A stretch of DNA of 64,000 nucleotides from Halomarina oriensis (lineage in GTDB: Archaea; Halobacteriota; Halobacteria; Halobacteriales; Haloarculaceae), in contig NZ_WSZK01000005.1 of the NCBI RefSeq assembly GCF_009791395.1, forward strand, positions 1-64,000. The letters are read 5' to 3'. The notes under the pieces were generated by a model. The model made no database searches. It was not told where the DNA came from and worked only from the letters and a program-made list of their open reading frames with translations. A program made the translations under genes and the position numbers. This document shows positions 3,946 through 20,548 of this stretch, in pieces; position 1 is the stretch's first letter; each line of letters begins with the position of its first letter.

Positions 3946-4503
3946 ATGAGCGAGACCCGACTCGCCACCTTCGGTGGTGGCTGTTTCTGGTGTACCGAAG
4001 CGGTGTACAAGGAGGTCGAGGGCGTCCACGCTGTCACCTCGGGCTACGCGGGTGGGCACGTCGAGAACCCCTCCTACGAGGCGGTCTGTCGGGAGGAGAC
4101 CGGCCACGCCGAGGTCGTTCAGGTCGAGTACGATCCGTCGGTGGTCGACTACCCCGAACTGCTGGCCATCTTCTTCACCGTCCACGACCCGACGACGCTG
4201 AACCGACAGGGACCGGACGTGGGCAGCCAGTATCGCTCTATCGTCCTCTATCACGACGACGACCAGCGCGAGATAACCGAGGAGTACATCGCGGGACTCG
4301 AATCGGAGGCGGTCTACGACGACGACGTCGTCACCGAGGTCGAACCGCTGGAGACGTTCTACGAGGCCGAGGAGTACCACCAGGACTACTACGAGAAGAA
4401 CCCCGGCGACGGCTACTGCCAGTTCAACGCCGACCCGAAGATTCGGAAGGTCCGCGAACAGTTCGCCGACACGGTCCGATCGGAACCCGGCCAGTCGGTC
4501 TGA
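3946..4503 (+). CDS. msrA: Peptide-methionine (S)-S-oxide reductase
   Basis: Repairs oxidised methionine (S-sulfoxide form) in proteins, in the cytoplasm. The 185-residue protein carries the MsrA signature GCFWC at residues 12-16 (catalytic Cys13) very near the N-terminus, and a GYAGG motif downstream, as in the family. The length is normal. It is transcribed alone. Its neighbour at 4937-5413 is a peroxiredoxin, so this short stretch is concerned with oxidative damage. Confidence 0.95.
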   Translation: MSETRLATFGGGCFWCTEAVYKEVEGVHAVTSGYAGGHVENPSYEAVCREETGHAEVVQVEYDPSVVDYPELLAIFFTVHDPTTLNRQGPDVGSQYRSIVLYHDDDQREITEEYIAGLESEAVYDDDVVTEVEPLETFYEAEEYHQDYYEKNPGDGYCQFNADPKIRKVREQFADTVRSEPGQSV

Positions 4504-4936
4504 GGCCGCGCCGACGGCCTCGATCCGCTCACCTGCCCGCGGGCAGTGGCTCTCGCTTTCCGACCGTGGGGAGAACACGCCCGAGACTGTGAGGACCCAC
4601 GGGTGAGCCACGACTTTTCCGTCGACGTCCCGGGTTCCCGGTTCGTCGAACGGACCGGCCGACTCGACGGCCCGTATCTAGACTGTTAGAACGTTCACGG
4701 TTTCGTGCTAGCCGACCCCGTATCAGTCTACGCTCAACGTTCAATACCGAACCTCCCCAACGGTGGAATCGAGACCGGAACCCCTCGTAGCCAATCCGGT
4801 TTCGGGTGTGACTCCCTCATTCCCACCCTTTCTTCGTTCCACTGTCACCGCCGCTATCGACGCGAAGAGCCGTACGGTTCGTTCGACACACGGTTCGACC
4901 TCGTCCGGCCGACGGCCGGACGGTCGTTGTCGCCGT
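4504..4936. other. Intergenic region, no gene seen
   Basis: This stretch lies between the convergent msrA and peroxiredoxin genes. The open frames crossing it are short, Arg/Pro-rich and lack family features. No clear hairpin, repeat or RNA gene was recognised. Confidence 0.4.
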
Positions 4937-5413
4937 TCAGGCCGCCTCGATGGCGTCCTGTAGCTCCTCGTAGTCGGGTTCCTCCTCGGCGGGGTCGTCG
5001 GCCTCCCACGTGTAGGTGACGGTTCCGCTGTCGTCGACGACGTACACCGCGCGGTTGGCCGCGCCGTAGAGGCCGAGGTCGGGAGCGTCCATCGAGAGAC
5101 CGTACTCCTCGATGGTGTCGCCCTTCTGGTCGCTGACGAGGTCGAACGACAGGTCGTGTTCGTCGCGGAACGCGTTGAGGCAGAACGGCGAGTCGTGGCT
5201 CAGTCCGTAGAGCGACGCGCCCGCGTCCTCGTACTCACCGACGTGCTCTTCGAGCGCGACCATCTCGTTGGAACACGGCGGCGTGAACGCGCCGGGGAAG
5301 AACGCGAGGACGAGCGGTCCGTCGCCCGTCTGCTCCGAGAGCGTGAACTCCTCGAGGTCACCGGTTGCGACCTTCTGCGTGAAGTCGGGTGCGCTGTCGC
5401 CTTCGGATACCAT
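4937..5413 (-). CDS. Peroxiredoxin (AhpE/BCP type)
   Basis: Thiol peroxidase that reduces hydrogen peroxide and organic hydroperoxides. The 158-residue protein has the thioredoxin-like fold pattern and the peroxidatic motif PGAFTPPC with Cys47. A second Cys near residue 78 (DSPFC) could resolve the disulfide. The ATG at 5413 gives the usual short N-terminus, and a CGTTTATCC TATA-like element lies about 30 bases upstream, which suggests a leaderless transcript. The open frame extends further upstream but only into Ser/Thr/Arg-rich noise. Confidence 0.93.
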   Translation of the reverse strand: MVSEGDSAPDFTQKVATGDLEEFTLSEQTGDGPLVLAFFPGAFTPPCSNEMVALEEHVGEYEDAGASLYGLSHDSPFCLNAFRDEHDLSFDLVSDQKGDTIEEYGLSMDAPDLGLYGAANRAVYVVDDSGTVTYTWEADDPAEEEPDYEELQDAIEAA

Positions 5414-5602
5414 GTGTCGAGAGAGGAGCGTGAGGGATAAACGGGTGGCGCTGGTGGTCGCGTTCGCCGCCGTCACGGGGTATATACGTGGCGAGTGACA
5501 CCCCGCTTGAGTGTGGCGCGGTGTGTCCGCGTCGCCCCCCGACCGCGAAACCACCGACGACGAGCGGACAGGCTTTTGCTCGGGGAGGCGTCACGGCGGG
5601 GT

Positions 5603-6007
5603 ATGGTCTCACCGTGTCCGGGTTGGAACGACAGGGATGGGGGGTACGAACGTGACGGGACGGTCGTCGCCGTCGAACCGGTGGCCGTCTACGAGGGCGG
5701 CGGCCTCTCGACGACCGAGTCGGTCCCCGAAGACGAGGCGGACGCCTACGACGTCTCGCTGTGGACGCGCACGACGAACGGCCAGCGGTCGGTGACGCCG
5801 GTCACCTTCGAGCCCCCGCTGGCGGCGTGGGAGTTCGCTCACCTCCTGACCTGGTACGTCGACGACCAGGGGTTCGACGCGACCCGGACTGCGCTCTCGG
5901 GGAGCGACTGGTCGCCTCCGACCGTCGTCACCGACGAGGACGCCGAAACCGTCTTTCGCAACCTCCTGGGCGACGACGCCACGTCGCTCGACGCCGTGCT
6001 CGACTGA
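5603..6007 (+). CDS. Small conserved-looking protein of unknown function
   Basis: A 134-residue acidic protein with no signal peptide or membrane segment. It reads like a small soluble alpha/beta protein: alternating strands such as GTVVAVEPVAVYEG, then helices toward the C-terminus. A GGCTTTTGC element lies about 32 bases before the ATG at 5603, which supports this start over upstream in-frame codons. The composition is typical haloarchaeal coding. It converges on the frameshifted glycosyltransferase. No function is assigned. Confidence 0.7.
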   Translation: MVSPCPGWNDRDGGYERDGTVVAVEPVAVYEGGGLSTTESVPEDEADAYDVSLWTRTTNGQRSVTPVTFEPPLAAWEFAHLLTWYVDDQGFDATRTALSGSDWSPPTVVTDEDAETVFRNLLGDDATSLDAVLD

Positions 6008-6057
6008 CCGGCACAGGGACGCGACGCTCCCCTCCCCTCGTGCTCCTCGTTCGGCGT

Positions 6058-7096
6058 TCAGAGTCGACGAACGACGTCCGCGAACGCCCGTCGGAACGCG
6101 GCCCGTCGCGTCGCCGCGTCGAACGTCCGGCCACGCTCGCGGGCCTGTGCCGCGAGCGTCGCTCGCTCTCCCGGTGGTCGGTCGAAGGCCCGGTTCACGC
6201 CCGCAGCGAGCGCCCTGCTCGTCGGTTCGACGACCAGCGCGGGGTCGAGCGCACGGACCTCCGAGCACGTCCCGGCAGTCTCGGTGACTACCGGTACTCG
6301 TCCGGCACAGAGCGCTTCGAGCGTGCTGACGGGGAACGTGTCCATCCGCGAGGGCTGGACGAACAGTGCGCTCTCGGCGAACAGTTCGACCAGCCGTGCC
6401 TCCTCGACGAACCCGTGGCGTTCGACGCCCGGTACCTCGTCGTAGCGGTCGGGGTGGCCGGCACCGGCGACGTGGAGCGTCGCCTCGGGGTGACGCTCCC
6501 TGACGCGGGGCCACGCCTCGACCAGCAGGTCGACACCCTTGTACCGCGCCCCGCGTCCGACCGTCAGCGCGGTCGGTTCGTCGGGGGGGGTCCTCGATGG
6601 CGAGCAACGACTCGTAGCGTTCGGGGTGGACGTACGGGTGGGCGACGCGGACGGGCGCGTCGCCGACGAACGGGCGGACGAAGTCGGCGGCGAACCCGGA
6701 GACGGCGACACAGCCGTCGATGCTCCGGCGGGCGACCGCACGGACGACCGGGCGACCGAACCGTCCGACGGCGGTCTTCAGCCCCGACTGGCCGGCGAAC
6801 GACCCTCGGCCGAGGTCGTAGAGACCGTGGTCCGCACAGAGGTAGACGACCTTCGCGCCCGCTCGAGCGCGCGCGAGCGTCGCGGCGTACAGCGGCTGTG
6901 ACCCCTCGACGAGGTAGACGTCGGCGTCGGGGTAGGTGAGCGCGTTCAGTGCGTCCTCGGCGACGCTCCCCGAGAGCGGTCCGGCCGACCGGTCGCGGAA
7001 GCCGACCTGTTCCGCGCCGATCGCCCGTGCGAACCCGGCGTGGGCGGGGTGGGGGTCGGTACAGAGCATGACGACGCGGGCCGTCTCGGGGTCCAT
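6058..7096 (-). pseudogene. GT4-type glycosyltransferase, frameshifted in a C8 tract
   Basis: The N-terminal half (about 7096-6591) and the C-terminal half (about 6590-6058) are in different frames but together make one normal glycosyltransferase of about 345 residues. The C-half has the typical GRGARYKGVDLLVEAW donor-domain start and the acidic PSRMDTFPVSTLEA motif. The frames meet at a run of eight G on the plus strand (6583-6590), that is C8 in the gene; one base fewer would restore the frame. It is therefore a sequencing error, a pseudogene, or a slippage-switched gene. The start lies about 32 bases from a TTATATGAC element shared with the divergent gene at 7159. Confidence 0.8.
6583..6590. 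repeat. Homopolymer G8/C8 tract at the frameshift
   Basis: Eight consecutive G on the plus strand, exactly where the reading frame of the glycosyltransferase changes. Homopolymers of this length are prone to slippage both in vivo and in sequencing. Confidence 0.85.
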
Positions 7097-7125
7097 TCCT
7101 CTGGTCGGTCGGCGGTAGCGGTCAT

Positions 7126-7135
7126 ATAACTATCC
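7126..7135 (+). promoter_or_regulatory. ATAAC-type promoter, divergent with the glycosyltransferase
   Basis: ATAACTATCC begins 33 bases before the ATG at 7159, the spacing expected for a leaderless haloarchaeal mRNA. The same AT-rich patch read on the minus strand (TTATATGAC) is at the right distance from the ATG at 7096, so the two genes probably share overlapping promoters. Confidence 0.55.
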
Positions 7136-7158
7136 GGTGTGGTCTGCTCTCCCCGTCC

Positions 7159-8562
7159 ATGTCACGGGTCGCGCGGTCGGTCCCCGCCGAGCGCAACGTC
7201 GTCGTTCTCTGTCTCGACACCGTCCGGAAGGACGCCTTCGACGCGTTCGCGCCACGGCTCCGTGCGGCGGCCGACGTCGAGTACGCGGGCTGTCGAGCGG
7301 CGAGTTCCTGGAGCACGCCGAGTCACGCTTCGATGGTCACCGGCCACCTCCCGCACGAACACGGTGTCAACGCCCACGCCCCGTCGTTCCGCCCGCTCGC
7401 CGGCCGGACGGTGTTCGACCGCCTGCCCCACCACACGGTCGGCGTCAGCGCGAACCCCTACGCCGGGTCGCCACACGGCTTCGACACGCTGTTCGACGAG
7501 TTCGTCGACGTCTCCCGGTACCGCCGGTTCCCGACCGGTGCCGACCCGGACGCGCTCGTCCGGGACCACGCCGACGGGACACCGAGGGGCTACGCTCGGG
7601 CGCTCGCCGCCGTCGCTCGCCACGACCACCCCCTCCGGAGCGCCGCGAATCTCGCGGCGTTTCGCGCCAACGACCTGGTTCGCCACGGGCCGCTCTCCGG
7701 CCCGGAACTGTTCGACGACGGTGCACGGGTCGTCGAACGCGCCACCCTCGACCGTCTGGAGGCGAGCGACGAACCGGTTGCCGTGTTCTGTAACGTGATG
7801 GACGCTCACTCGCCGCTCCGGGCGATTCGCGGCTTCGCCGGCACCGACGTGCCCGAGGGCTGGACCTCCGAGGGGATGACGCCGACGGCGGTCAGCACCG
7901 ACCCCGAGGCGTTCGTCGAGGACCTCCATCGCTACCGGACGCTCTACGCCGCCGCCGTCGACTACCTCGACCGCTGGACGCTGGGGTTCGCCGAGCGCCT
8001 CCAGGCCGCGACCGACCGCGAGACGACGCTGGTCGTCACCGCCGACCACGGCGAGAACCTCGGATACCCGGCCGACGACGGCCTGTTCGGCCACGTCGGG
8101 AGTCTCACCGAGGCGCTGTTGCACGTCCCGCTCGTCGTCCTGAACGCCCCCGAGTCGCCCGGCGTCGTCGACGGCACCGTCTCGCACCTCGACCTGCCGT
8201 ACCTCGTCGAGAGTCTCGCCGCGGGGTCCGTCCCGAACCTCCGACGCGAGCACGTCCTCGCCGAAGTGCTCGGACGTACGCCGGGCAACGACGGCCTCGG
8301 CGAGCGGTTCGACCGGGTCCGTCGAATCGTCTACGACGGCGACCGGAAACACGAGTGGGACGACGCCGGCGAGTCACGGACGCTCGCGCTCGACGCCGAC
8401 CGCCCGTGCTGGCAGACGACCGTCGACACCGTCGACCGTCCCGACTGGACGGCCGACCTGCCGGCGCTCGAAACCGTGCGTGCGGACCGGGCGACCGACG
8501 CCGTCGACGAGAGCGTCGACGAGAGCGTCGAGAGCCGACTCCGTGACCTCGGGTATCGGTAG
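7159..8562 (+). CDS. Sulfatase/alkaline-phosphatase-fold enzyme
   Basis: A 467-residue member of the sulfatase superfamily, metal-dependent hydrolases or phosphotransferases. Seen: N-terminal metal-site strand VLCLDTVRKDAF, then SSWSTPSHASMVTGHLPHEHG, where Ser/Thr replaces the formylglycine Cys of true sulfatases, and the C-terminal metal motif VVTADHGENLG. The CxPSR maturation motif is missing, so it may be a phospho- or sulfo-transferase-like or non-sulfatase hydrolase. No signal peptide is visible, which suggests it acts on a cytoplasmic or membrane-face glycan. A flippase gene follows with no spacer (TAG then ATG). The near C-terminal repeat VDESVDES comes from a 12-base tandem duplication. 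Confidence 0.88.
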   Translation: MSRVARSVPAERNVVVLCLDTVRKDAFDAFAPRLRAAADVEYAGCRAASSWSTPSHASMVTGHLPHEHGVNAHAPSFRPLAGRTVFDRLPHHTVGVSANPYAGSPHGFDTLFDEFVDVSRYRRFPTGADPDALVRDHADGTPRGYARALAAVARHDHPLRSAANLAAFRANDLVRHGPLSGPELFDDGARVVERATLDRLEASDEPVAVFCNVMDAHSPLRAIRGFAGTDVPEGWTSEGMTPTAVSTDPEAFVEDLHRYRTLYAAAVDYLDRWTLGFAERLQAATDRETTLVVTADHGENLGYPADDGLFGHVGSLTEALLHVPLVVLNAPESPGVVDGTVSHLDLPYLVESLAAGSVPNLRREHVLAEVLGRTPGNDGLGERFDRVRRIVYDGDRKHEWDDAGESRTLALDADRPCWQTTVDTVDRPDWTADLPALETVRADRATDAVDESVDESVESRLRDLGYR

Positions 8563-10014
8563 ATGGCCGACCTCGACCGGTCGAGCCTCGCGCTGTACGG
8601 GTCGCGGGTCGGCGTCAGCGTCATCGGCTTCGCCAGCACCGTCTACTTCGCGCGAGCCATCGGCGCGGAGGGGCTGGGCATCTACTTCACCGTCGAGACG
8701 GTGGTCGTCGTCCTCGCGGTGCTCGCCCGGTTCGGCGTCGACAGCGCCGTCGTCAAGCGACTGAGCGGTGCGGCCGACGACGCCGAACGCGCCCGTCACC
8801 TCACCGGCGCGTTCGGTCTCGTCCTCGTCCCACTGGCGGTCGTCTCGCTGGCCGTCCTGCTGTTCGCCGACCCGCTCGCCGACCTCGCGGACCTCCCGCT
8901 CGCACCGCTCGCGCTCGTCGGGATGGTCGTGGCGTTGCTGGTCGTCGAGACCGGACAGTGGCTGTTGCTGTCGGCGCTGCGCGGCGAGCGCCGCCTCGCC
9001 ACGAGCGCGGGCGTCGAGTTCGGCGGCGAGGTGCTCCGCGTCGGGACGAGCGTCTGGTTCGTCCTCGGTGGGAGCGGCCCGGTCGGACTGGTCTACGGTC
9101 TCCTGATCGGTCACGCGGCCCGAGCGCTCGTGGCGGGCGTCCTCCTCGACACGGGCCTCGCCCGCCCGACCCGCGAGACGATGACCAGTCTCGTCTCGTT
9201 CTCGAAGTACACCGCGGGGATGAACGTCAGCCACCTCACCTACTCGTGGCTCGACACGCTCGTCCTCGCGGTGGTCGTCTCGAAGACGGCCGTCGGCACC
9301 TACGAGGCCGCCTGGCGGGTCAGTCTCGTCGTGGCGCTCGCCAGCTCCGCCGTCGGGGCGGCGCTCGCGCCGAACGTCTCGGCGTGGGCGGCCAGCGACG
9401 CGTTCGAGCGTATCGAGGAGGCGTTCACCAACTCGCTGTCGTTCGCGCTGCTGCTGGTCGTCCCGGCCGTCGTCGGTGCAGCGGTGCTCGGCGGGCCGTT
9501 CATGGCCGTCGCCTACGGCTTCGGCGGCGGCGCACTGCTGGCGGTGCTCGTCGCCGGGCAGGTCGCACAGGCGGTCAAGGACGTCGTCCAGTCGACGCTG
9601 CTCGGCCTCGACCGGCCCCGAACCGTCTTCGTCACGAACGCGGTCGGCCTCGGGACGAACCTCGTGTTGACCGTGGGGCTAGCGCTCGCCTACGGTCCCC
9701 TCGGTGCGGCCGTCGGGACGGCGCTCACGGCCGCCGTCGTCGCCGTCGTCCAGTGGCGTGCGCTCCAGTCGTGGCTCGCCGCACGGGTCGACCGGCGGGC
9801 GCTCGCCTGGCAGGTCGGCGGCGCGCTCGTGATGGGTGGTGTCGTCGTGGGGGCCACGCGCGTCGTCACCCCCGACTCGCCGGTGCCGCTGCTCGCGCTG
9901 GTCGCGCTCGGTGCGCTGACCTACGGTGGGGTCGTCTCGCTCCACGCACCGACGCGGACGCGACTCGTCGGTCTGGTCCAGCCGAACGCGACCGGTCAGG
10001 CCGAAGGCTCCTGA
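8563..10014 (+). CDS. Polysaccharide flippase (Wzx/RfbX type)
   Basis: A 483-residue multi-pass membrane protein with about 12-14 hydrophobic helices and the family N-terminal pattern (LYGSRVGVSVIGFASTVYFARAIGAEGLG), typical of the MOP/MATE-Wzx superfamily. It would flip lipid-linked sugar units across the membrane. The ATG directly follows the stop of the sulfatase-fold gene, so the two form one transcription unit. It is one of three flippases in the window (see 50696-52210 and 52214-53767) and is clearly more distant from that pair than they are from each other. Confidence 0.92.
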   Translation: MADLDRSSLALYGSRVGVSVIGFASTVYFARAIGAEGLGIYFTVETVVVVLAVLARFGVDSAVVKRLSGAADDAERARHLTGAFGLVLVPLAVVSLAVLLFADPLADLADLPLAPLALVGMVVALLVVETGQWLLLSALRGERRLATSAGVEFGGEVLRVGTSVWFVLGGSGPVGLVYGLLIGHAARALVAGVLLDTGLARPTRETMTSLVSFSKYTAGMNVSHLTYSWLDTLVLAVVVSKTAVGTYEAAWRVSLVVALASSAVGAALAPNVSAWAASDAFERIEEAFTNSLSFALLLVVPAVVGAAVLGGPFMAVAYGFGGGALLAVLVAGQVAQAVKDVVQSTLLGLDRPRTVFVTNAVGLGTNLVLTVGLALAYGPLGAAVGTALTAAVVAVVQWRALQSWLAARVDRRALAWQVGGALVMGGVVVGATRVVTPDSPVPLLALVALGALTYGGVVSLHAPTRTRLVGLVQPNATGQAEGS

Positions 10015-10152
10015 CGGCGTGCGCTCCACACCCGGCGGAGCGACCCGCCGCCGAGTGCACCTCCCGACGGTGACCGTCCTCCCTCCCGGCCCGTCGTCGA
10101 GTCGCCGGTTAGTATCCGATTTCTAATACCCCCCTCGGCCCAACCTCCGTCC

Positions 10153-10212
10153 ATGATGCCGGTCTCCCGTCCTCGTCCGACCGCCCGCGCTTCGAGAGGT
10201 CGCCATGCGTGA
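10153..10212 (+). CDS. Leader ORF (19 codons) overlapping the methyltransferase-like gene start
   Basis: The peptide is MMPVSRPRPTARASRGRHA. Its ATG lies 32-34 bases after a TTTCTAATACC element (10119-10130), the distance of a leaderless start. Its TGA (10210-10212) lies just inside the next gene, which starts at 10205 behind GAGAGGT. It matches the arrangement seen at 14479, 40081, 45950, 49737, 53805 and 63827. Translation has not been shown. Confidence 0.4.
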   Translation: MMPVSRPRPTARASRGRHA

Positions 10213-12166
10213 CGAAGTGTTGACGCGCTGGGTCGACCAACCGCCGGCCGACCCCGTCTACCAGTACCTCCGGGACGCCGAGAAAGAACAGGCGTGGGAC
10301 CTGCTCGGCTCTCGCGGCCGGGTCCTCGACGTCGCCAGCGAGGCGAACGTCACCGCGGGACTGGACGCCGAGGCGGTCGCTCGCGTCGACTTCTCCGACA
10401 CCGCACTCGACCACGCCGAATCGCTACTCGGCGACCGGGTCGGCCGGTACGAGCAGGTCGCCCCCGAGACGCCCCGCCTCCCGTTCCCCGACGACCACTT
10501 CGACGCCGCGGTGAGCATCGGCCCCTACGACTGGCGGTTCCTCGACGTCGCGGCGCTGACCGCCGAGGTGCGACGCGTCGTCGCTCCCGAGGGCCTGTTC
10601 GTCTTCTCCGTGCCGACACCTCGTTCGCCCTACGAGACGGGCGGGAAGTACGAACAGCGCTACTACACGCCCACGGCGATTCGCCGCCTGCTCGAACCGG
10701 GATGGGCGCTCGCGGACCACCGTGTCGTCTACCAGCACCCCTACTGGCTCCACTCGAAACTCGCCGAGTTCGTCCCCGGCCCGCTCCAGCGGCCGTTCGT
10801 CGACTTCGCCGAGCGCAAGACCGACGCGCTGAACGACGCCCACCAGCAGGCGGCGGCGGACGACGACGCGCCCGACGACGGCCGTCCGCCCGAGGTGTGG
10901 GACGACGCGTCGTACGTCGTCGTCGGCGCACGGCCCGTCGACTACGAGGGGAGTCTCGACGCGGCGCTCGACTGTCTGTTCCGTCCGACCGCCGAGGAGG
11001 GCTTCTGGGCCGCCGACGACGCGGGCGGCCACATCACCCGCGAGTTGACCTACGACGTCGGCGCGGACGGCCGCCCGACGAACTGGACGGCCGAAGACGA
11101 CGTCGTCTGGCGCTACGCCCCGTTCGCGCTGATGGGCGCGATGCAGTGGCGGACCTCCCCTCGGGGGACGGACCGTGTCGACGCGAAGCTCCGCCGGCAG
11201 CTCGCGTACTTCGAGGAGCGCATCGAGGAGGGTGCGCTCGACGAGATGCCGAGCTACGGCCTCGGGCCGCTGACCTGCGCGTTCGCGCTCGCGGCCGACG
11301 TCTTCGACGAGCGGTTCCTCGAGCGGGCGACCGAGCTGTTCGAGCACAGCGAGGAGCGCGTCCAGTACGAGCACAGCGAGGACAGCCTCGTCCTCTACGG
11401 CTGGACCTACCTCTACGAGCGGACCCGCGACCCCGACGTGCGGACGGCCATCGACCGCGGGATGGACGCCGTCGTCCAGCGACAGAACGCCTGGAAGACG
11501 CTCTTCTACTTCGACAACGAGACGACCCGTCGCCACCAGAACCAGCAGTACACGCTGTGGGGGCTGGCGCGCGCCATCGAGGTGACGGGTCGGACGGGCT
11601 ACCTGGAGAACGTCGAGGCCGTCCTCGACTACACCGTCGACGTGCGGATGCAGGCCGACGGCGCGTTCATCTGGGAGGACCCCTCCCGGCGAACGTACTA
11701 CGGCGCGGAACTGCGCCGGGTGCTCGGTACGGGCTTCTCCCGGCCACCACACTGGGAGTTCCTCTACGCCTGCCACCAGACGTTCTTCGTCAACGCCGTC
11801 GCCCACTACTACGCCGCCGGTGGCCGTCGTGACTACGACGCCGAACTCGGTCGGGCGATGCGCTGGATCTACGGCGAGAACGTCCGCGGGACGGACCTGA
11901 TAGCCGAGAGCGGTCTGGGCGTTCCCATCCGGTTCACGACGCTCGACGGCCGTATCGACGTCCCCGACCAGCAGTTCAAGGGGGCGTACGAGGTCGGGTC
12001 GCATCTGATGGCGCTGACGAACCTGCTGGACCTCGAACGTCGCCGGGTCGCGGACGACCGGCACGTCCCCGCTCCGGCGGCCGCCGACAGCGAGGTGAGC
12101 GACCCCGATGCGTACACCGGTCGGTCCGCTCGTCCCGACGGCGAGCACGTGGAGGACGGCGCATGA
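10205..12166 (+). CDS. Methyltransferase-like domain fused to an alpha/alpha-toroid domain
   Basis: A 653-residue two-domain protein. Residues of about 1-250 follow the class I SAM-methyltransferase layout (VLDVASEANVTAG, then LPFPDDHFDAAVSIGPYDW, then a LFVFSVPTPRS strand). However, motif I lacks the normal glycine-rich loop, so SAM binding is doubtful or altered. Residues of about 250-620 form repeated helical hairpins rich in Trp/Tyr (GWTYLYERTRD, QNQQYTLWGLARAIE, HWEFLYACHQTFFVNAV), as in six-hairpin glycosidase or epimerase toroids. A related toroid occurs at 60126-61406. The start has GAGGT 4 bases upstream. The stop overlaps the next glycosyltransferase by ATGA. A role in glycan processing is inferred. 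Confidence 0.8.
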   Translation: MRDEVLTRWVDQPPADPVYQYLRDAEKEQAWDLLGSRGRVLDVASEANVTAGLDAEAVARVDFSDTALDHAESLLGDRVGRYEQVAPETPRLPFPDDHFDAAVSIGPYDWRFLDVAALTAEVRRVVAPEGLFVFSVPTPRSPYETGGKYEQRYYTPTAIRRLLEPGWALADHRVVYQHPYWLHSKLAEFVPGPLQRPFVDFAERKTDALNDAHQQAAADDDAPDDGRPPEVWDDASYVVVGARPVDYEGSLDAALDCLFRPTAEEGFWAADDAGGHITRELTYDVGADGRPTNWTAEDDVVWRYAPFALMGAMQWRTSPRGTDRVDAKLRRQLAYFEERIEEGALDEMPSYGLGPLTCAFALAADVFDERFLERATELFEHSEERVQYEHSEDSLVLYGWTYLYERTRDPDVRTAIDRGMDAVVQRQNAWKTLFYFDNETTRRHQNQQYTLWGLARAIEVTGRTGYLENVEAVLDYTVDVRMQADGAFIWEDPSRRTYYGAELRRVLGTGFSRPPHWEFLYACHQTFFVNAVAHYYAAGGRRDYDAELGRAMRWIYGENVRGTDLIAESGLGVPIRFTTLDGRIDVPDQQFKGAYEVGSHLMALTNLLDLERRRVADDRHVPAPAAADSEVSDPDAYTGRSARPDGEHVEDGA

Positions 12167-13104
12167 GCGACCCGCTCGTCAGCGTCGTCGTCCCGACCCA
12201 CAACCGGGCCGACACGGTCGGTGGGGCCATCGAGACGGCGCTCGACCAGACCTACGACCCGCTGGAGGTGGTCGTCGTCGACGACGGGTCGACCGACGCG
12301 ACCCCCGAGCGCCTCGCCGACTACGCCGACGACCCACGGGTCCGGACGGTCAGAAACGACAGTTCGCGGGGCGTCGCCGGGGCCCGCAACCGCGGCCTGG
12401 CGCTCGCCGACGGCGAGTTCGTCTGTGCGCTCGACGACGACGACCGCTGGCACCCCGAGAAGGTCGCTCGGCAGGTCGCTCGCCTCCGGGAACTCGGCGA
12501 GGAGTACTGCGGGGTCTACTGCGGTGAACGGGTCGTCGTCGAGGGCGAGGACCACGAACGCGAGCGGGTCGTCACGGACGGCTACGAGGGCGACCACCTC
12601 CCGAACGTGCTCGTCCGGATGGACGTCCTCCCGCACTCGGGGCATCTCGTGCGGGCGTGGTGTCTCGACGCGGTCGGCGGGTACGACGAGCGCTTCGACA
12701 TCGCGTGTGACTGGGCGCTCGCCATCGAACTCGCCCGCCGCTGGCAGTGGGGGTACGTCGCCGCCCCGCTCGTCGAGCGCCACCGCCACGGGGAGAACCT
12801 CTCGTCGTCAGCCGCGTACGACGTTCGGGCGCGGGAACTCGTCGCCGAGCACTTCGGCGACGTCGTCGACGAGGTGGGCGTCAGGCGGCCGTTCGAGGCC
12901 GCCGCGGCACGCGAACGGGGTCTCCTGGCGGTCGAGAACGGCGACCGGCGGACCGCTCGTCGTGAGTTGCTCACCGCGCTCCGTCACGTCCCGTCGCCGG
13001 CCCACGCCGCGCTGGTCTGTGCGTCGTTAGGTGGTCGACGTGCGCTCGCCGGTGCGAGAGCGGCCCGGTCGCTCGGGACGCGAATCGCCGTCTGCACCGA
13101 GTGA
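12163..13104 (+). CDS. Family 2 glycosyltransferase
   Basis: A 313-residue GT-A fold enzyme. It has the N-terminal VSVVVPTHNRADTVGGAIE, the nucleotide-sugar motif VVVDDGSTD, and the metal-binding CALDDDDRWHPEK. It transfers a sugar from a nucleotide donor during glycan assembly; no membrane segment is obvious. It is coupled by a 4-base ATGA overlap to the fusion gene upstream. Its 3-prime end runs 78 bases into the convergent glycosyltransferase at 13027-14322, an unusually long tail-to-tail overlap. Confidence 0.93.
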   Translation: MSDPLVSVVVPTHNRADTVGGAIETALDQTYDPLEVVVVDDGSTDATPERLADYADDPRVRTVRNDSSRGVAGARNRGLALADGEFVCALDDDDRWHPEKVARQVARLRELGEEYCGVYCGERVVVEGEDHERERVVTDGYEGDHLPNVLVRMDVLPHSGHLVRAWCLDAVGGYDERFDIACDWALAIELARRWQWGYVAAPLVERHRHGENLSSSAAYDVRARELVAEHFGDVVDEVGVRRPFEAAAARERGLLAVENGDRRTARRELLTALRHVPSPAHAALVCASLGGRRALAGARAARSLGTRIAVCTE

Positions 13105-14322
13105 GTCGTAGACCGACCACAGCGTCCCGGCCTCCCGTTCCCAGTTGTACGTCTTCTCGGTCGCCGCCCGACCGTTCGTCGCCAGTCGCTCCGCCAGCGT
13201 GTCGTCCTCGGCGAGTTCGACCAGCCGAGCGGCGAGCGTCTCGGGGTCACCCTCGGGGACGACCACGCCGCTGTCCGTCTCGCGGACGACGCTCGCCAGC
13301 GTCTCGACTTCGGTGACGACGACGGGCTTGCGCGAGGCCATGTACTGGAACAGTTTGTGCGGAACCGTCGTCGCGGTGTGGGGGTTGTCCGTGTGCAAGA
13401 CCGCACAGACGTCGCTGGCGGCGACGTAGCGTGGGACGTCCGCGAAGTCGACCCAGCCGGGGAACGTGATACGGTCGCCGACGCCCGTCGCCGCGGCGCG
13501 TTCGTGGAGCGAGCGCTCGTAGACGTCCTCGCCGGCCGACCCGACGACGAGCAGGCGTGCGTTCGGAACCTGCCCGACGAGTCGCGGCATCGCGTCGATG
13601 AGCTGTTCGAGCCCTCGATGCGGGCCGAAACTCCCGACGTAGCTGACGACGAACTCGTCCTCGTAGCCCGGTATCGGGTCTGCGGCCGTGTCGTACGCGC
13701 CGAAGTCGACGGTGTTCGAGACGACGTGCACCCGTTCGGGGTCCGCATCGCAGTCCTCGATGTAGTGGGCTCGGCCCGCCGGCGTCGTCGCCAACACGTG
13801 GTCGGCCCGCTCGACACACTCGCGTTCGAGGCGTCTGAGTCGGCGATACGGCGTGAACGTCCGCTGGATGGTCCGTCGGGGTTCGCCCATCCCCGTTCGC
13901 CACTGCCGGGCGGCCTCGGGGTAGTTCTCGTGGAGGTCGGCGACCAGCGGGAGGCCGTGGTCGTCGGCGACGGACTGGGCGGTCCGGACGAGCGGCAGGT
14001 CGTGGACGTGGAGGGTGTCGACGTGCCGCTCGCGGACGAACCGCTCGATCTCGCGCCGCCAGATGACGTCCGTCAGCGTCAGCAGGTAGCGGACTGTCTT
14101 GGCGGTGCGGTAGGGACTCGTGTAGCGCTCTCGCCGGGGGATGCGGACGACGTCGACGTCCTCGAACCGGTCGGCGAGCGGTTCGCTCGCCGACCCGTCG
14201 TCGTCCTCTCGAGCGAGACAGAGCAGCGAGACGGTGTGACCGGCCGCACTGAGCGACCGCGCCTCCTTCTCGACGCGGATGTCGTGCGGGAACGTCCCTC
14301 TGAGTATCATCCCGACGTGCAT
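13027..14322 (-). CDS. Family 4 (group 1) glycosyltransferase
   Basis: A 431-residue GT-B enzyme. It has the N-terminal MHVGMILRGTFPHDIRVEKEARSL acceptor-domain start, a HDLPLVRTA and LHENYPE mid-region, and a donor domain with the FGPHRGLEQLIDA and PHKLFQYMASRKPVVVTE signature. This subgroup is common in polysaccharide clusters. The last 26 or so residues (Arg/Ser/Glu-rich) are encoded within the convergent overlap with the GT2 gene. The start is divergent from the gene at 14508; a CATAGTAAAC element lies about 40 bases upstream. Confidence 0.93.
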   Translation of the reverse strand: MHVGMILRGTFPHDIRVEKEARSLSAAGHTVSLLCLAREDDDGSASEPLADRFEDVDVVRIPRRERYTSPYRTAKTVRYLLTLTDVIWRREIERFVRERHVDTLHVHDLPLVRTAQSVADDHGLPLVADLHENYPEAARQWRTGMGEPRRTIQRTFTPYRRLRRLERECVERADHVLATTPAGRAHYIEDCDADPERVHVVSNTVDFGAYDTAADPIPGYEDEFVVSYVGSFGPHRGLEQLIDAMPRLVGQVPNARLLVVGSAGEDVYERSLHERAAATGVGDRITFPGWVDFADVPRYVAASDVCAVLHTDNPHTATTVPHKLFQYMASRKPVVVTEVETLASVVRETDSGVVVPEGDPETLAARLVELAEDDTLAERLATNGRAATEKTYNWEREAGTLWSVYDSLGADGDSRPERPGRSRTGERTSTT

Positions 14323-15780: not shown

Positions 15781-16848
15781 TCAGTCGCCACCGGGCGACA
15801 CCGACGGTTTCGTGCCCTGTTCGGTGTCGTCACTGGACAGCGTGGCGTCGACCTGAGTCGGCACGCGGAAGTAGTAGCTCGTCTCTTCGTCGAAGACGGC
15901 GTACAGTCGCTGTTCGGAGTCGTGGAGGACGCGCTTCTCCGAGTCGATGGCGAGGTCCACGAGGTCGGTCAGCGACGCGACGTGGACCACACGATTCGCC
16001 GTCTGGTCGATTTCGGAGAGTTTCGCCTCGGAGATCCACTCACGATGCCGGTCGTAGAGCAACTCGACACGGGCGGCCTGCTGATCGAACTCTCGTTCAC
16101 GAGTGACGAGGACCGCCGCCCCCGCGACCGCCCACAGTCCGAGTAGCGAGAGGCCGGCGACGCTCGGCCAGTTCGGCGGTTCGCGCTCCTCGACGGTGAC
16201 CGGTGTCGTGTGGGTCTCGTCGGCCGACAGTTCGTCGAGCGAGTAGCCCCGGCCCTCGAAGGCCAACTGCGCGTCCGCGGTCTGCGAGTCGGCGTACGTC
16301 CCCGTGTCGTAGGAGACGTTCAGCCGAACCCGCGCCTCCGCACGGCCCGCCCGCCCGAACTCCTCCTGGATGACGTCGAGGCGCTGGCTGACGGCCGACG
16401 CGTTGACCGTCGCCTCGGTGGTCAGCCCGTCGGTCCCCGTCGCCTCACGGTGGGCGAGCGTCTCCGAGCGCTCCCAGACCACCTCCTCGTCGCGGACGAC
16501 CCGATAGACGAGTTCGAGGCGCTGGTCGACGTCGGCGTTCGCGTCGGGTGACGACGACGTCGCGCTGAGCGTCAGGTTCGGCGACGCCTCGACCAGATAC
16601 ATCGGCTCGTCGTGCAGTTCCGTGCCGGACTCCCAGACCGTGCTGTCGCCGGTGACGACCGCACTGGTGTTGACGACCGCGCCGACCTGCTGGGCGTCGC
16701 GCTGTTCGGTCACGACCGTCGTTCCGGGCGCGAGCACCAGCGACCCGGCGGCGACGAACGCGAGGACACCGACGACGACGAGCACCGCCGCTACCTCACG
16801 GTCGTAGTCCGCGAGCAGGAGTCTGAGCTTGCTGATTCCGGGTGTCAT
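15781..16848 (-). CDS. DUF5305-like membrane protein
   Basis: A 355-residue protein. Residues of about 15-40 form a membrane helix (EVAAVLVVVGVLAFVAAGSLVL). An extracytoplasmic beta-rich domain follows with several N-glycosylation sequons (NTS, NLT, NAS, NVS). A second helix lies near 240-260 (WPSVAGLSLLGLWAVAGAAVL), then a cytoplasmic C-terminal domain. This is the DUF5305 layout found beside archaeal signal peptidases. It is the last gene of the TasA/SipW-like operon, where it could anchor or organise fibres at the membrane, as TapA does in Bacillus (analogy only). The ATG at 16848 places the helix correctly; the upstream open frame overlaps the previous gene. Confidence 0.82.
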   Translation of the reverse strand: MTPGISKLRLLLADYDREVAAVLVVVGVLAFVAAGSLVLAPGTTVVTEQRDAQQVGAVVNTSAVVTGDSTVWESGTELHDEPMYLVEASPNLTLSATSSSPDANADVDQRLELVYRVVRDEEVVWERSETLAHREATGTDGLTTEATVNASAVSQRLDVIQEEFGRAGRAEARVRLNVSYDTGTYADSQTADAQLAFEGRGYSLDELSADETHTTPVTVEEREPPNWPSVAGLSLLGLWAVAGAAVLVTREREFDQQAARVELLYDRHREWISEAKLSEIDQTANRVVHVASLTDLVDLAIDSEKRVLHDSEQRLYAVFDEETSYYFRVPTQVDATLSSDDTEQGTKPSVSPGGD

Positions 16849-16903
16849 GCCTGCTTCCCCATCGCGTCGAGCGTCTGAGTTTGTATCCTTCCAATCATAT
16901 GTG

Positions 16904-17449
16904 TCAACACCAGTCCGGGCGGTCACTCGGGCGGCCAGTACACGCCGGAGGTCCGTTACCTCGTTCTACGTCGACTCCCCTGTTAGAGAGAGCGCCCGAA
17001 AATCCTGTTCCATCGACCTCGATAGTGTACGTAAGACGCTCGGAGTCAGGCAGACTGGTTTCTGCACCGAGTGATTTCGTCCCTCCTGGCTGTATGGTGA
17101 ACGATATTTGATTCGTCTCTGACCGTCCATCGGCGTACAGCGTTGTATCTGTGCCGCCGTTCGCTCCCTGTTCGGTCACTACGACGGTGACGCTGATTTG
17201 AGTACCAACGCGGTTCGTGAGGGTCAGAAATTCGCTCACCTTGCCGCTTCTCACTGCTTGGTCCGTCAGACCGATAACGGCGCTCGGGTCCGTGTCGTCG
17301 ACCACACCGACCGTCGTCCCACGGTCGACACTCGCCGAGGTGAACGACGAGGCTGGGAACGCAGCCAACGCTCCCACGGCCAGCAGGGCCAGCAGGGCCA
17401 GCAGGACGACCAGCGCGCGCCGCGACTTCTCACGCCGTCGTCGTCTCAT
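16904..17449 (-). CDS. Exported TasA/DUF1102-like subunit 2
   Basis: A 181-residue protein with a strongly basic N-terminus (MRRRRREKSRR) and a long Leu/Ala-rich signal helix. A motif FTSASVDRGTTVGVVDD follows right after the predicted cleavage site. The same pattern, FTSA-x-I/V-x-R, appears in the protein at 18440-18961, so the two are paralogous. Such proteins are exported, beta-sandwich matrix or pilus-like subunits. The start overlaps the signal-peptidase stop by ATGA. Three perfect copies of a 9-base unit (17378-17404) encode LLA repeats in the signal helix. The C-terminus ends in a Pro/Arg/Cys-containing tail (PPACTGRPSDRPDWC). Confidence 0.8.
   Translation of the reverse strand: MRRRRREKSRRALVVLLALLALLAVGALAAFPASSFTSASVDRGTTVGVVDDTDPSAVIGLTDQAVRSGKVSEFLTLTNRVGTQISVTVVVTEQGANGGTDTTLYADGRSETNQISFTIQPGGTKSLGAETSLPDSERLTYTIEVDGTGFSGALSNRGVDVERGNGPPACTGRPSDRPDWC
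17378..17404. repeat. Triplicate 9-base tandem repeat in a signal peptide
   Basis: GGCCAGCAG repeated three times without change on the plus strand. On the coding strand it encodes Leu-Leu-Ala repeats in the hydrophobic core of the signal peptide. Copy-number change would lengthen or shorten the helix without a frameshift. Confidence 0.8.
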
Positions 17450-18429
17450 AGCTTCGCCCTCGCTCTCTCGACCCATCGCGGGGTCACCGACCGCATCCGC
17501 GCGCCCCCGTCGAAGAACAGGCTGTACGCCGCGAACAGGGGGCCGAACGTCACCAACAGCACGACGACGCGCGCGAGGTAGGGACTGACGCCGTGCAGTG
17601 TGTCGAGCCACGCCCCCGGCAACACGGCCGGATAGGGCGACACCCGCACTGACGGTTCGTACGTTCCGACCTCCTGTGGTGGGATGTGCAGGGTGAGCGT
17701 CGTCGTCGACCCTTCGACGGTCCTCTCGACCACCGTCGCACCGCTCGCGTCGGCGACGGTCGTAGTGAACGGCAGGTGGTTCGTCTTCACCGTGACCTCC
17801 CGTTCGACCTCCTGACCGGCCGGAATCGAGTGGCGCTGGGTCAACTCGCCCTCCTCGACGGCGTAGCGCGCCGGGTGGACGCTCGTTGCGAACACCATCA
17901 CGAGCAGCGACGCGACGACGAGACCGAGGAACAGCGGTCGAGCGAGGTCGTCGAACGTGTACACCTCTCGAATGGGCGTACCCCCTCCGTTTCCGACGAA
18001 CCCCCACGCGAACAGCGCGGCCACCACCCCGAAGACGAGCAGTTCGTACGTCCCGACGAACCCCACGAGGGGGCCGAGCATCGGAATCACGAGTGGCCCG
18101 CCACCGAGCGTGACGACCGTACCGACGATGGCCGACTCGGAGACGACCGGGTTGCCGGCCGCCTGGTCGGTCGACGGGTTCGCATCGCCCTTGGTGATGA
18201 AGCCCTCGTCCGTCTCGCTGACGATACGGTGTGTGACGTAGCCACGCTCCTCGCTGTGGAAGGTGACGACGTCACCCTCCGAGACGGGCCCCTCGACGAC
18301 GAGGTAGCCGTCGCCGGGCGAGAGCGTCGGTTCCATGCTCCCGGACGTGACGTACGAGAGGTGGAGCGGACCGAACGCTATCGCCGCGACAGCGAGCACC
18401 GCAGTGAGAAAGGCGAGACGACGGTACAT
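17446..18429 (-). CDS. SipW-like archaeal (ER-type) signal peptidase with extra C-terminal domain
   Basis: Membrane serine protease of family S26B that removes signal peptides. The 327-residue protein has an N-terminal helix, the catalytic serine motif VTSGSMEPTLSPGD (Ser near 32), and THRIV, where His replaces the bacterial catalytic Lys, as in SipW and the ER enzymes. GDANPSTD is the last catalytic box. Beyond about residue 150, extra membrane helices and an extracytoplasmic beta domain double the usual length. It lies 10 bases after one TasA-like gene and overlaps the next by 4 bases, so the operon substrates are probably those two proteins. Confidence 0.9.
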   Translation of the reverse strand: MYRRLAFLTAVLAVAAIAFGPLHLSYVTSGSMEPTLSPGDGYLVVEGPVSEGDVVTFHSEERGYVTHRIVSETDEGFITKGDANPSTDQAAGNPVVSESAIVGTVVTLGGGPLVIPMLGPLVGFVGTYELLVFGVVAALFAWGFVGNGGGTPIREVYTFDDLARPLFLGLVVASLLVMVFATSVHPARYAVEEGELTQRHSIPAGQEVEREVTVKTNHLPFTTTVADASGATVVERTVEGSTTTLTLHIPPQEVGTYEPSVRVSPYPAVLPGAWLDTLHGVSPYLARVVVLLVTFGPLFAAYSLFFDGGARMRSVTPRWVERARAKL

Positions 18430-18439
18430 CGACGTCCGA

Positions 18440-18961
18440 TTACACCTTGTTCGCAGTGACGACGACGTTTCCGCCGGACGCGGTGTCTCCGCTCGCCAGG
18501 TCGACCGTCAGAACGACGTAGACGGTTTCACCACCGGCGACCGAAGTCGTGTCGGACTCGACCAGCGAACCATCAGACGTGTACATACTGACACCACTGA
18601 TGAGGTCGTTGCTGCTGGTTACGTCGACGGTGTAGCTCCCGTCGCCACTCTGTCCGGGAGTGAACGTGAACGCCGCCGTGTTGCTGTTCTGTACGGACGT
18701 TTGGCTACCGAAGGTGAAGCTGCTGGACCCCCGGTTCAGGTCGTCGAACTCGAGAGCCATCTTGCCGGTCTGACCGTCGAACGTAGCGACGCCGAGGCCT
18801 CCGTCGGCGAACGTGATCTCTGCTGCTGCAGCGTCGTCATCTGCCACGGTGACGGACGTGCTTCGAGTGATCTCTGCGCTGGTAAACGCTGACGCTCCCA
18901 CGACGGACGCGGAGAGCATCAGCGCTGCCGCTAATGCCGCGAATTTGAGTGTACGTGCCAA
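18440..18961 (-). CDS. Exported TasA/DUF1102-like subunit 1 (TTG start favoured)
   Basis: A 173-residue exported protein: signal peptide ARTLKFAALAAALMLSASVVGASA, then FTSAEITRSTSVTVADDD and a Ser/Thr/Gly-rich beta domain. The FTSA-x-I/V-x-R pattern and length match TasA/camelysin/AbpA-like matrix subunits. An ATG at 18994 lies only 7 bases from a TTTATATATC box, so it would probably precede the transcript. The TTG at 18961 lies about 40 bases from that box and has GAGGGAG 6 bases upstream, and it gives a clean signal peptide. It is first in the operon, followed by the signal peptidase. Confidence 0.82.
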   Translation of the reverse strand: MARTLKFAALAAALMLSASVVGASAFTSAEITRSTSVTVADDDAAAAEITFADGGLGVATFDGQTGKMALEFDDLNRGSSSFTFGSQTSVQNSNTAAFTFTPGQSGDGSYTVDVTSSNDLISGVSMYTSDGSLVESDTTSVAGGETVYVVLTVDLASGDTASGGNVVVTANKV

Positions 18962-18994
18962 TTTAAACTCCCTCGAAGGTATCCAACGTGGCAT

Positions 18995-19005
18995 GATATA
19001 TAAAA
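18995..19005 (-). promoter_or_regulatory. TATA box of the TasA/SipW-like operon
   Basis: TTTTATATATC on the minus strand is the strongest TATA box in the window. Its position relative to the codons at 18994 and 18961 is what argues for the downstream TTG start. Confidence 0.6.
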
Positions 19006-19353: not shown

Positions 19354-20523
19354 TCAGTCGATCTCTTCGAGGTGTTCGTCGAAGCGTTCGGTCTGTTCTT
19401 CGACGCCGATGTGCTGGTAGGCGGCGTGGGTCGTCGAGAGGTCCTTGTGCCGAGCGAGGTCCTGAGCGTCACCACGGTCACGGCGGTACACTTCGCCGAT
19501 GATGCCCCGACGAGCGCCGTGGAGCTGGAGGTAGCCCGCCTCGTCGTCCACGTCGATGCCCGCCTCGTCGGTCAGGCGCTTCAGCACGCTCCGTGCGCCC
19601 TCGGTCGTCAGCGCGGGCGGAGCGACGTCACGCTCACGGAGGAGCGCGTCGATGCCACCCGCCTCGTCGACGAGCGCTGCCACGTCCACGTCGTCGCCCA
19701 GTTCCTCCCGGACGGCGGCGTACTTCGACGGGGCGTGGTCGGTCGAGAACACCGGCCAGTCCTCGCTCGGTGGGCGCTGGACGGCCTGCCAGCGTTCGAC
19801 ACCCACCGCGGCCTTCGCGGGGAGTGCGATGGGGCCGAGATGCTGGTCCTTCCCGAGGACGCGCAGCGTCGAGCGTTCGAGGTCGACGTCCGACCATCGG
19901 ACGCCCTGGCGACCCTCCCGGTCGTCCTTGGGGTGGCGGAGCACCTCCGCGCCGCGGACGGCAGAGTACGCCAGGACGCGGACGAGTGCCCGGTCCCGTG
20001 CCTCCGTGGTCGCACCGAACCCCCTCTCGTCGACGGCCTCGGCCGCACGTCGGTCGACGAACCCGACCAACCGACGGCGCTGCTCGGTCGTCCAGAACTG
20101 CTGGTCGGTCCGCGAGGACTCGTCGGCCGGTAGCGCCTCGCGTGCGGTGTTGGTCAGCGCCGGGTTCGTCGGTAGACGGCCGTCACGGACGCAGTAGGTG
20201 AGAAAGCCCGAGAGGTACGAGAAGTAGGCGTTGGCCGTCGACCCGGCGATTCCGCCCGCCGTGACGCGGTCGTCGAGGCGCTCGACGTACCGGCGGACGA
20301 CGAGCGGCCCGTCGTCGCCCGCGAGGTCGTCGAGCCCGCGTCCCCGTGCACGCATCCATCCCACGAATCGCCGGAGTTCGGACCCTGCGGCGTCGACGTA
20401 CGACCCCGACGGGTCGCCCTCGTCGTCGACGCCCGTGGACTTCGACCGGAGATAGCGCTCGACCGCGGTCTGCAGTGCGTCGGCCGTCCGACTCGGGTCG
20501 TCTCCCGACCTGTCCTCGTCCAT
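19354..20523 (-). CDS. Tyrosine recombinase / integrase (XerC/D-like)
   Basis: Site-specific recombinase of 389 residues. The N-terminal SAM-like DNA-binding domain (about 20-140) includes ELRRFVGWMRARG and TANAYFSYLSGFLTYC. The catalytic domain shows Arg in AYSAVRGAEVL, the HxxR box LHGARRG, His in ARHKDLSTT, and the nucleophile Tyr in HAAYQHIG. All key residues are present, so it should be active. No other mobile-element genes flank it, which fits a resident Xer-like or domesticated integrase. A TTTTG box lies about 29 bases upstream, inside a repeated palindrome, suggesting autoregulation. Confidence 0.9.
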   Translation of the reverse strand: MDEDRSGDDPSRTADALQTAVERYLRSKSTGVDDEGDPSGSYVDAAGSELRRFVGWMRARGRGLDDLAGDDGPLVVRRYVERLDDRVTAGGIAGSTANAYFSYLSGFLTYCVRDGRLPTNPALTNTAREALPADESSRTDQQFWTTEQRRRLVGFVDRRAAEAVDERGFGATTEARDRALVRVLAYSAVRGAEVLRHPKDDREGRQGVRWSDVDLERSTLRVLGKDQHLGPIALPAKAAVGVERWQAVQRPPSEDWPVFSTDHAPSKYAAVREELGDDVDVAALVDEAGGIDALLRERDVAPPALTTEGARSVLKRLTDEAGIDVDDEAGYLQLHGARRGIIGEVYRRDRGDAQDLARHKDLSTTHAAYQHIGVEEQTERFDEHLEEID

Positions 20524-20548
20524 CACTCATCGCCGAGGCGGCCGATGC

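Follow-up and report, generated by a model that had tools for sequence, protein, structure and literature searches.

Two kinds of secreted fibre provide points of comparison for the locus studied here. In Bacillus subtilis, the fibre protein TasA, with Phe at P2', is processed by its dedicated signal peptidase SipW and only poorly by the Escherichia coli enzyme LepB (PMC10269814). Within the tapA-sipW-tasA operon, tapA overlaps sipW, the unstructured N-terminus of TapA donates a strand, and the complete immunoglobulin (Ig) fold of TapA makes it an initiator only (PMC10151520; further TasA/TapA precedent in PMC9674648). In archaea, bundling pili and Sulfolobus threads are donor-strand fibres independent of type IV pilin signal processing (PMC9715654). 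We analysed a four-gene operon in the first 64,000 nucleotides of contig NZ_WSZK01000005.1 of Halomarina oriensis (this whole stretch is hereafter the window), which a preliminary description had presented as a TasA/SipW-like matrix-fibre operon. All four genes that it listed were found, on the minus strand and in the order it gave: an exported subunit (sub1), a SipW-like signal peptidase, a second exported subunit (sub2) and a membrane protein of the DUF5305 family. Judging from sequence comparisons, the operon most likely belongs, as a separate and conserved variant, to a pilus family widespread in haloarchaea, and is not a genuine copy of the TasA operon of Bacillus.

Kinship of sub1 with a haloarchaeal pilin

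We consider it likely that this operon makes a thin extracellular fibre (a pilus or fimbria), as a variant of the widespread SipW/DUF5305 pilus cassettes of haloarchaea. Profile comparisons of the subunit families speak for it. The sub1 family (profile A3) aligned over its whole length with the subunits bearing twin-arginine (Tat) type signal peptides that occur in related cassettes (profile A5; hhalign probability 99.8%, E = 1e-27), and did so again once the signal peptide and the N-terminal motif had been removed (99.2%, E = 2.4e-19). The profile of these Tat-type subunits in turn matched the PDB entry 9p0a, deposited as 'Pilin', with E = 2e-31. The part of the 9p0a sequence visible in the alignments is 100% identical to the product of a Natrinema gari locus (L141), in which the pilin gene is followed by genes for a secreted 361-amino-acid protein, a SipW-like peptidase and DUF5305. 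The deposited haloarchaeal pilin thus originates from a SipW/DUF5305 cassette akin to that of the window, and the profiles place sub1 in the same superfamily as this solved structure.

The two cassettes have in common the subunit superfamily (with a signal peptide, a G/A-F-x-S-V-x-A-x-R motif and a beta body), a SipW-like peptidase with an extra domain, and DUF5305. They differ in that the Natrinema pilin is a 213-amino-acid subunit with a Tat-type signal peptide, whereas sub1 of the window has no twin arginine; in that the 361-amino-acid secreted protein replaces sub2 and there is no sub2 coupled by a 4-nt overlap; and in gene order, the subunits lying upstream of the peptidase in Natrinema and flanking it in the window. 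A second likeness is with the fimbrial proteins covered by the NCBIfam 2026 models TafA, TafC and TafE (NF052520-NF052522; curated cut-offs of 155-410 bits): TafE matched 24 of 35 sub1 proteins and TafC 21 of 31 sub2 proteins.

Such cassettes are frequent. DUF5305 was present in 92 of the 116 genomes of the same taxonomic family. Among 40 neighbourhoods chosen by their DUF5305 gene alone, 38 also contained a SipW-like peptidase within the stretch fetched, and in most there were subunit-like genes sharing the N-terminal motif. Two subtypes can be told apart. In the commoner one (A), Tat-type subunits (M-x-RR-x-F-L) are encoded upstream of the peptidase; in the rarer one (B), which is that of the window, one subunit is encoded on each side of it. 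Searching the class with the peptidase at E ≤ 1e-30, we detected subtype B in 20 genera (31 of 391 genomes). The order sub1-peptidase-sub2, whose conservation in other haloarchaea had been proposed as a check, is repeated in 34 haloarchaeal loci, with a 4-nt RTGA overlap between the last two genes in 28 of them and DUF5305 usually downstream where the fetched stretch was long enough; recurrence on this scale exceeds what chance would give. Our literature search found no paper on haloarchaeal SipW cassettes, on Taf fimbriae or on DUF5305.

Some loci combine or duplicate these arrangements. The genome of the window encodes a second cassette, of subtype A, on contig 49 (L004, G000:C49:18000-36000, positions 7918-13209), with two Tat-type subunits, a 387-amino-acid SipW-like peptidase and DUF5305; on the opposite strand of this locus lie a helix-turn-helix-like gene and a further secreted subunit matching TafC (E = 2.5e-13). 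At L060 (G028:C1:1181500-1195000, positions 4421-10902), a B-like subunit, a peptidase and DUF5305 converge tail-to-tail with an A-type peptidase and its subunits.

The N-terminal motif FTSA-x-[IV]-x-R, claimed for both subunits in the preliminary description, is exact: FTSAEITR in sub1, whose signal peptide ends in ...VGASAF, and FTSASVDR in sub2, where it stands as SFTSASVDR behind an Arg-rich n-region. In the alignments of the two families (35 sub1 and 33 sub2 proteins), the signal peptide is followed by [AS]-[FY]-[TS], four residues, one position open to any residue, an invariant Arg and then V-x-D. The Arg is kept at fixed spacing in 35/35 sub1 and 33/33 sub2 proteins, and the aromatic F/Y in 34/35 and 32/33, respectively. 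This pattern would place the cleavage site right before the aromatic-containing motif.

Sub1 is likely the main fibre subunit, and sub2 an initiator, tip or anchor. In the AlphaFold2 model of sub2, residues 32-48 are disordered, with a predicted local distance difference test score (pLDDT) below 50, and are followed by an Ig-like sandwich (residues 59-162, mostly pLDDT >90), the 50 best Foldseek matches of which were generic Ig-like domains and one fimbrial subunit, PsaA. Some sub2 relatives are extended C-terminally, by a Laminin_G_3 lectin-type domain (L127:35-1222, E = 2.2e-18) or a lamin tail domain (L099:5781-6626, E = 1.3e-14), and these additions make sub2 fit better as a tip or surface-binding part than as a repeated rod subunit.

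The added C-terminal domains give the impression of an exchangeable tip part. In the window, the 3' half of sub2 (16904-17200) is lower in G+C (57%) than the peptidase and DUF5305 genes (67-68%), and the sub2 C-terminus (ACTGRPSDRPDWC) is unconserved; this part may evolve fast or have been recently exchanged. In subtype B, most sub1 proteins are without a twin arginine; those of L093, L094, L110 and L111 start with M-x-RR-T-x-I, like Tat substrates, and one subunit family seems to switch between export routes. Single-sequence PDB searches with sub1 and with sub2 gave chance matches only, and we also discarded as chance the Pfam matches of sub1 (CCDC158, DUF5648) and NCBIfam matches such as blaPenA, which were weak, below cut-off and not family-wide.

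Several points weigh against the pilus reading. No fibre has been seen for the operon of the window. The direct matches of the sub1 and sub2 profiles to 9p0a (E = 3.6e-5 and 5.6e-5, with no other convincing PDB match) rest mostly on the signal peptide and the N-terminal motif, and the full-length link between sub1 and the pilin runs via the Tat-type family. All Taf matches of the two families stay under the curated NCBI cut-offs: sub2 of the window scores 22.4 bits on TafC (E = 5.6e-5; cut-off 410) and 13.8 on TafE (cut-off 155), and sub1 has no Taf match at E up to 0.1. The model of sub1 is poor (pLDDT 69.1) and had no Foldseek match at E ≤ 0.001, and the disordered N-terminus of the sub2 model may be a mere linker. 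Finally, the paralogy of the two subunits, put forward in the preliminary description, is clear in the N-terminal region (98% probability, E = 1.4e-13) and weak in the bodies (59.8%); it is likely, if unproven.

The subunits might instead not polymerise at all and be proteins of the surface or matrix, either soluble or associated with the S-layer, which the peptidase and DUF5305 would only process and retain. Direct evidence of polymerisation is lacking for this operon, haloarchaea commonly have acidic beta-sandwich exoproteins, and the generic Ig-like matches of sub2 would suit such proteins. However, sub1 is homologous over its full length to the family of a deposited pilin encoded in the same kind of cassette, and we regard this alternative as improbable.

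Comparison with TasA and archaeal bundling pili

The pilus operon proposed here shares with tapA-sipW-tasA its logic (subunit, SipW-type peptidase, subunit), the endoplasmic reticulum (ER) type of its peptidase, an A-F pair after the likely cut, as at the mature start of TasA, and an overlap, as described for tapA and sipW (PMC10151520), between the peptidase gene and that of a second, initiator-like subunit. The possible likeness of sub2 to TapA would extend from the start codon overlapping the peptidase stop to the predicted disorder of residues 32-48 and the predicted Ig-like sandwich, and is best taken as analogy, not homology. On the other side, the subunits have no detectable sequence similarity with those of Bacillus, the described Bacillus operon has no DUF5305, and the haloarchaeal peptidase carries an added domain of ~95 residues.

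Were the operon an orthologue of tapA-sipW-tasA, with subunits of the TasA/camelysin family, the shared architecture, the A-F pair, the overlap and the peptidase score on the SipW model (40.8 bits, under its cut-off of 190) would all be in keeping with it. Nevertheless, when 35 sub1 and 31 sub2 proteins were compared with Pfam and NCBIfam, no TasA/camelysin family was matched, and hhalign comparison of the profiles with TasA aligned the signal peptide or chance stretches only. The TasA structures 8aur and 5of1 belong to the PDB set and were matched by neither profile, and in the fold check proposed earlier TasA was absent from the 50 best Foldseek folds of the sub1 and sub2 models, that of sub1 (pLDDT 69.1) being too poor to judge a TasA-type jelly roll. 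Orthology is thus very improbable. What stands of the TasA/SipW-like label is an exported-fibre operon with two exported subunits and a probably dedicated SipW-like peptidase, and what falls is kinship with TasA; that the system works like TasA is a reasonable analogy, that it is TasA is not upheld by the comparisons.

The pilus may also share with the bundling pili of Pyrobaculum (AbpA) and the Sulfolobus threads the nature of an archaeal donor-strand fibre without type IV pilin signal processing. Neither the sub1 nor the sub2 profile matched an AbpA or thread chain of the PDB at E up to 10; AbpA was likewise missing from the 50 best folds, and its sequence was not compared directly.

The peptidase, DUF5305 and a proposed assembly route

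The peptidase passes the model of archaeal signal peptidase I (TIGR02228; 60.9 bits, cut-off 51.85) and that of PF10502 (27 bits, cut-off 22.9). An alignment with 26 relatives shows that its catalytic residues are kept (Ser in SGSMEP, His in VTHRI, Asp in KGDANPSTDQ), and its sequence identifies it as an ER-type (SipW/Sec11) signal peptidase. According to the same alignment and to hydropathy, the catalytic part is followed by membrane spans and an extracytoplasmic domain of ~95 residues (about 187-283), which is conserved in both cassette subtypes and ends in Y-x-A-V-L-P-G. An enzyme of this type with an added extracytoplasmic domain is what the preliminary description had announced. This domain resembles neither the subunits nor DUF5305 in hhalign comparisons; the idea that it, or DUF5305, might be a subunit-like domain was unsupported by hhalign of the bodies only.

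Since the same genome has a separate ER-type peptidase, Sec11-like and encoded on contig 7, the cassette enzyme is probably a specialised one, in keeping with a dedicated role. That it is a general enzyme lying between the subunit genes incidentally is highly unlikely: subunit-like genes elsewhere in the genome (C49, C7) suggest that it may also act in trans, but the linkage is recurrent, with the overlap kept in 28 of 34 loci, the extra domain is common to cassette peptidases, and the genome has its separate Sec11-type enzyme. Outside both cassettes of this genome lies a subunit-like open reading frame (L130, G000:C7:200325-200696; TafE match at 4.3e-15), the product of which may use a cassette peptidase in trans.

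The DUF5305 protein scores 138.9 bits on PF17231 (cut-off 29). Its hydropathy profile predicts membrane spans at about 21-39 and 230-248, an extracytoplasmic part of ~190 residues between them and a cytoplasmic tail of ~105 residues; its constant linkage with the other genes suggests a membrane base or assembly platform. A search of the genome contigs with this protein found no related loci.

If the operon does encode a pilus, assembly could proceed in five steps. Pre-sub1 and pre-sub2 would be exported, via Sec going by their signal peptides. The operon's own peptidase would then cleave directly ahead of [AS]-F/Y, and the mature protein would carry the aromatic residue at its very N-terminus or beside it; the motif itself is observed in both families, and such a cut would mirror TasA, in which a dedicated peptidase accompanies the Phe at P2'. 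Once released, the N-terminal segment (F-x6-R-...-V-x-D) may act as a donor strand and complete the beta-sandwich of the following subunit, building up a sub1 fibre; the free N-terminus in the sub2 model is compatible with donor-strand assembly. Sub2 would start, cap or anchor the fibre, as TapA does for TasA. Its gene seems translationally coupled to the peptidase gene and sub2 is therefore probably made in small amounts, and some of its relatives bear the added domains. DUF5305, with its large extracytoplasmic part and two spans, would be the membrane base or assembly platform.

More tentatively, and with more doubt than conviction, we propose that these cassettes form a donor-strand system free of chaperone and usher, in which the peptidase (via its added domain) and DUF5305 make up the platform, the coupled sub2 acts as initiator or interchangeable tip adhesin, and export follows the Sec or the Tat route depending on the lineage. 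Usher-free donor-strand assembly of such archaeal fibres is testable, as is the idea that bacteria and archaea share the solution of a peptidase adapted to an aromatic residue just behind the cleavage site. The operon would represent a compact set of four genes, found recurrently, for a haloarchaeal fibre that is widespread and poorly described, giving likely roles to DUF5305 (as pilus base) and to the domain added in cassette peptidases.

Gene starts and genomic surroundings

A simple gene caller overlooked sub2 of the window and shortened several subunits, and we set the starts by hand from overlaps and alignments (Table 1). The 10-base spacing given in the preliminary description is that between sub1 and the peptidase gene; its 4-base spacing turned out to be the 4-nt ATGA overlap of the peptidase stop with the sub2 start, which suggests translational coupling of these two genes. 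Sub2 and the DUF5305 gene are 55 nt apart. The true start of sub1 is probably TTG 18961 rather than ATG 18994: the former corresponds in the alignment to the ATG at L063:4259, in the closest relative, and is preceded, 6 nt upstream, by AGGGAG, and the TATA-like box shared with L063 (18996-19004) directly abuts the latter.

Table 1 Features of the operon in the window
Feature	Position	Strand	Size, proposed role or basis
sub1, exported subunit	18440..18994	-	184 amino acids from ATG, probably 173 from TTG; likely main fibre subunit
SipW-like ER-type signal peptidase	17446..18429	-	327 amino acids; family scores, alignment with 26 relatives, hydropathy
sub2, second exported subunit	16904..17449	-	181 amino acids; likely initiator, tip or anchor
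DUF5305 membrane protein	15781..16848	-	355 amino acids; likely base or assembly platform
ATGA 4-nt overlap, peptidase stop/sub2 start	17446..17449	-	kept in 28/34 loci
TATA-like box (TTTATATAT) upstream of sub1	18996..19004	-	aligned with a similar box in L063; putative function
AGGGAG, Shine-Dalgarno-like, 6 nt before TTG 18961	18968..18973	-	alignment with L063 GAGGGAGTTTAAAATGGCACG

Upstream along the plus strand, the window encodes a flippase, a sulfatase-type protein, a methyltransferase-domain protein and three glycosyltransferases. The operon therefore does lie beside polysaccharide genes, as had been noted, and this neighbourhood is conserved only in the closest relative: two of the glycosyltransferases also adjoin the operon in L063, and none was seen beside it in ten other loci checked. 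The polysaccharide link is local. A 653-amino-acid protein of the polysaccharide cluster (10205-12166) combines a methyltransferase domain at its N-terminus with a long C-terminal region that has no Pfam match at E up to 0.001. On its other side, the operon is adjoined by an integrase-like gene on the same strand (19354-20526; PF00589, E = 3.1e-5, just below cut-off), and it may border a mobile segment.

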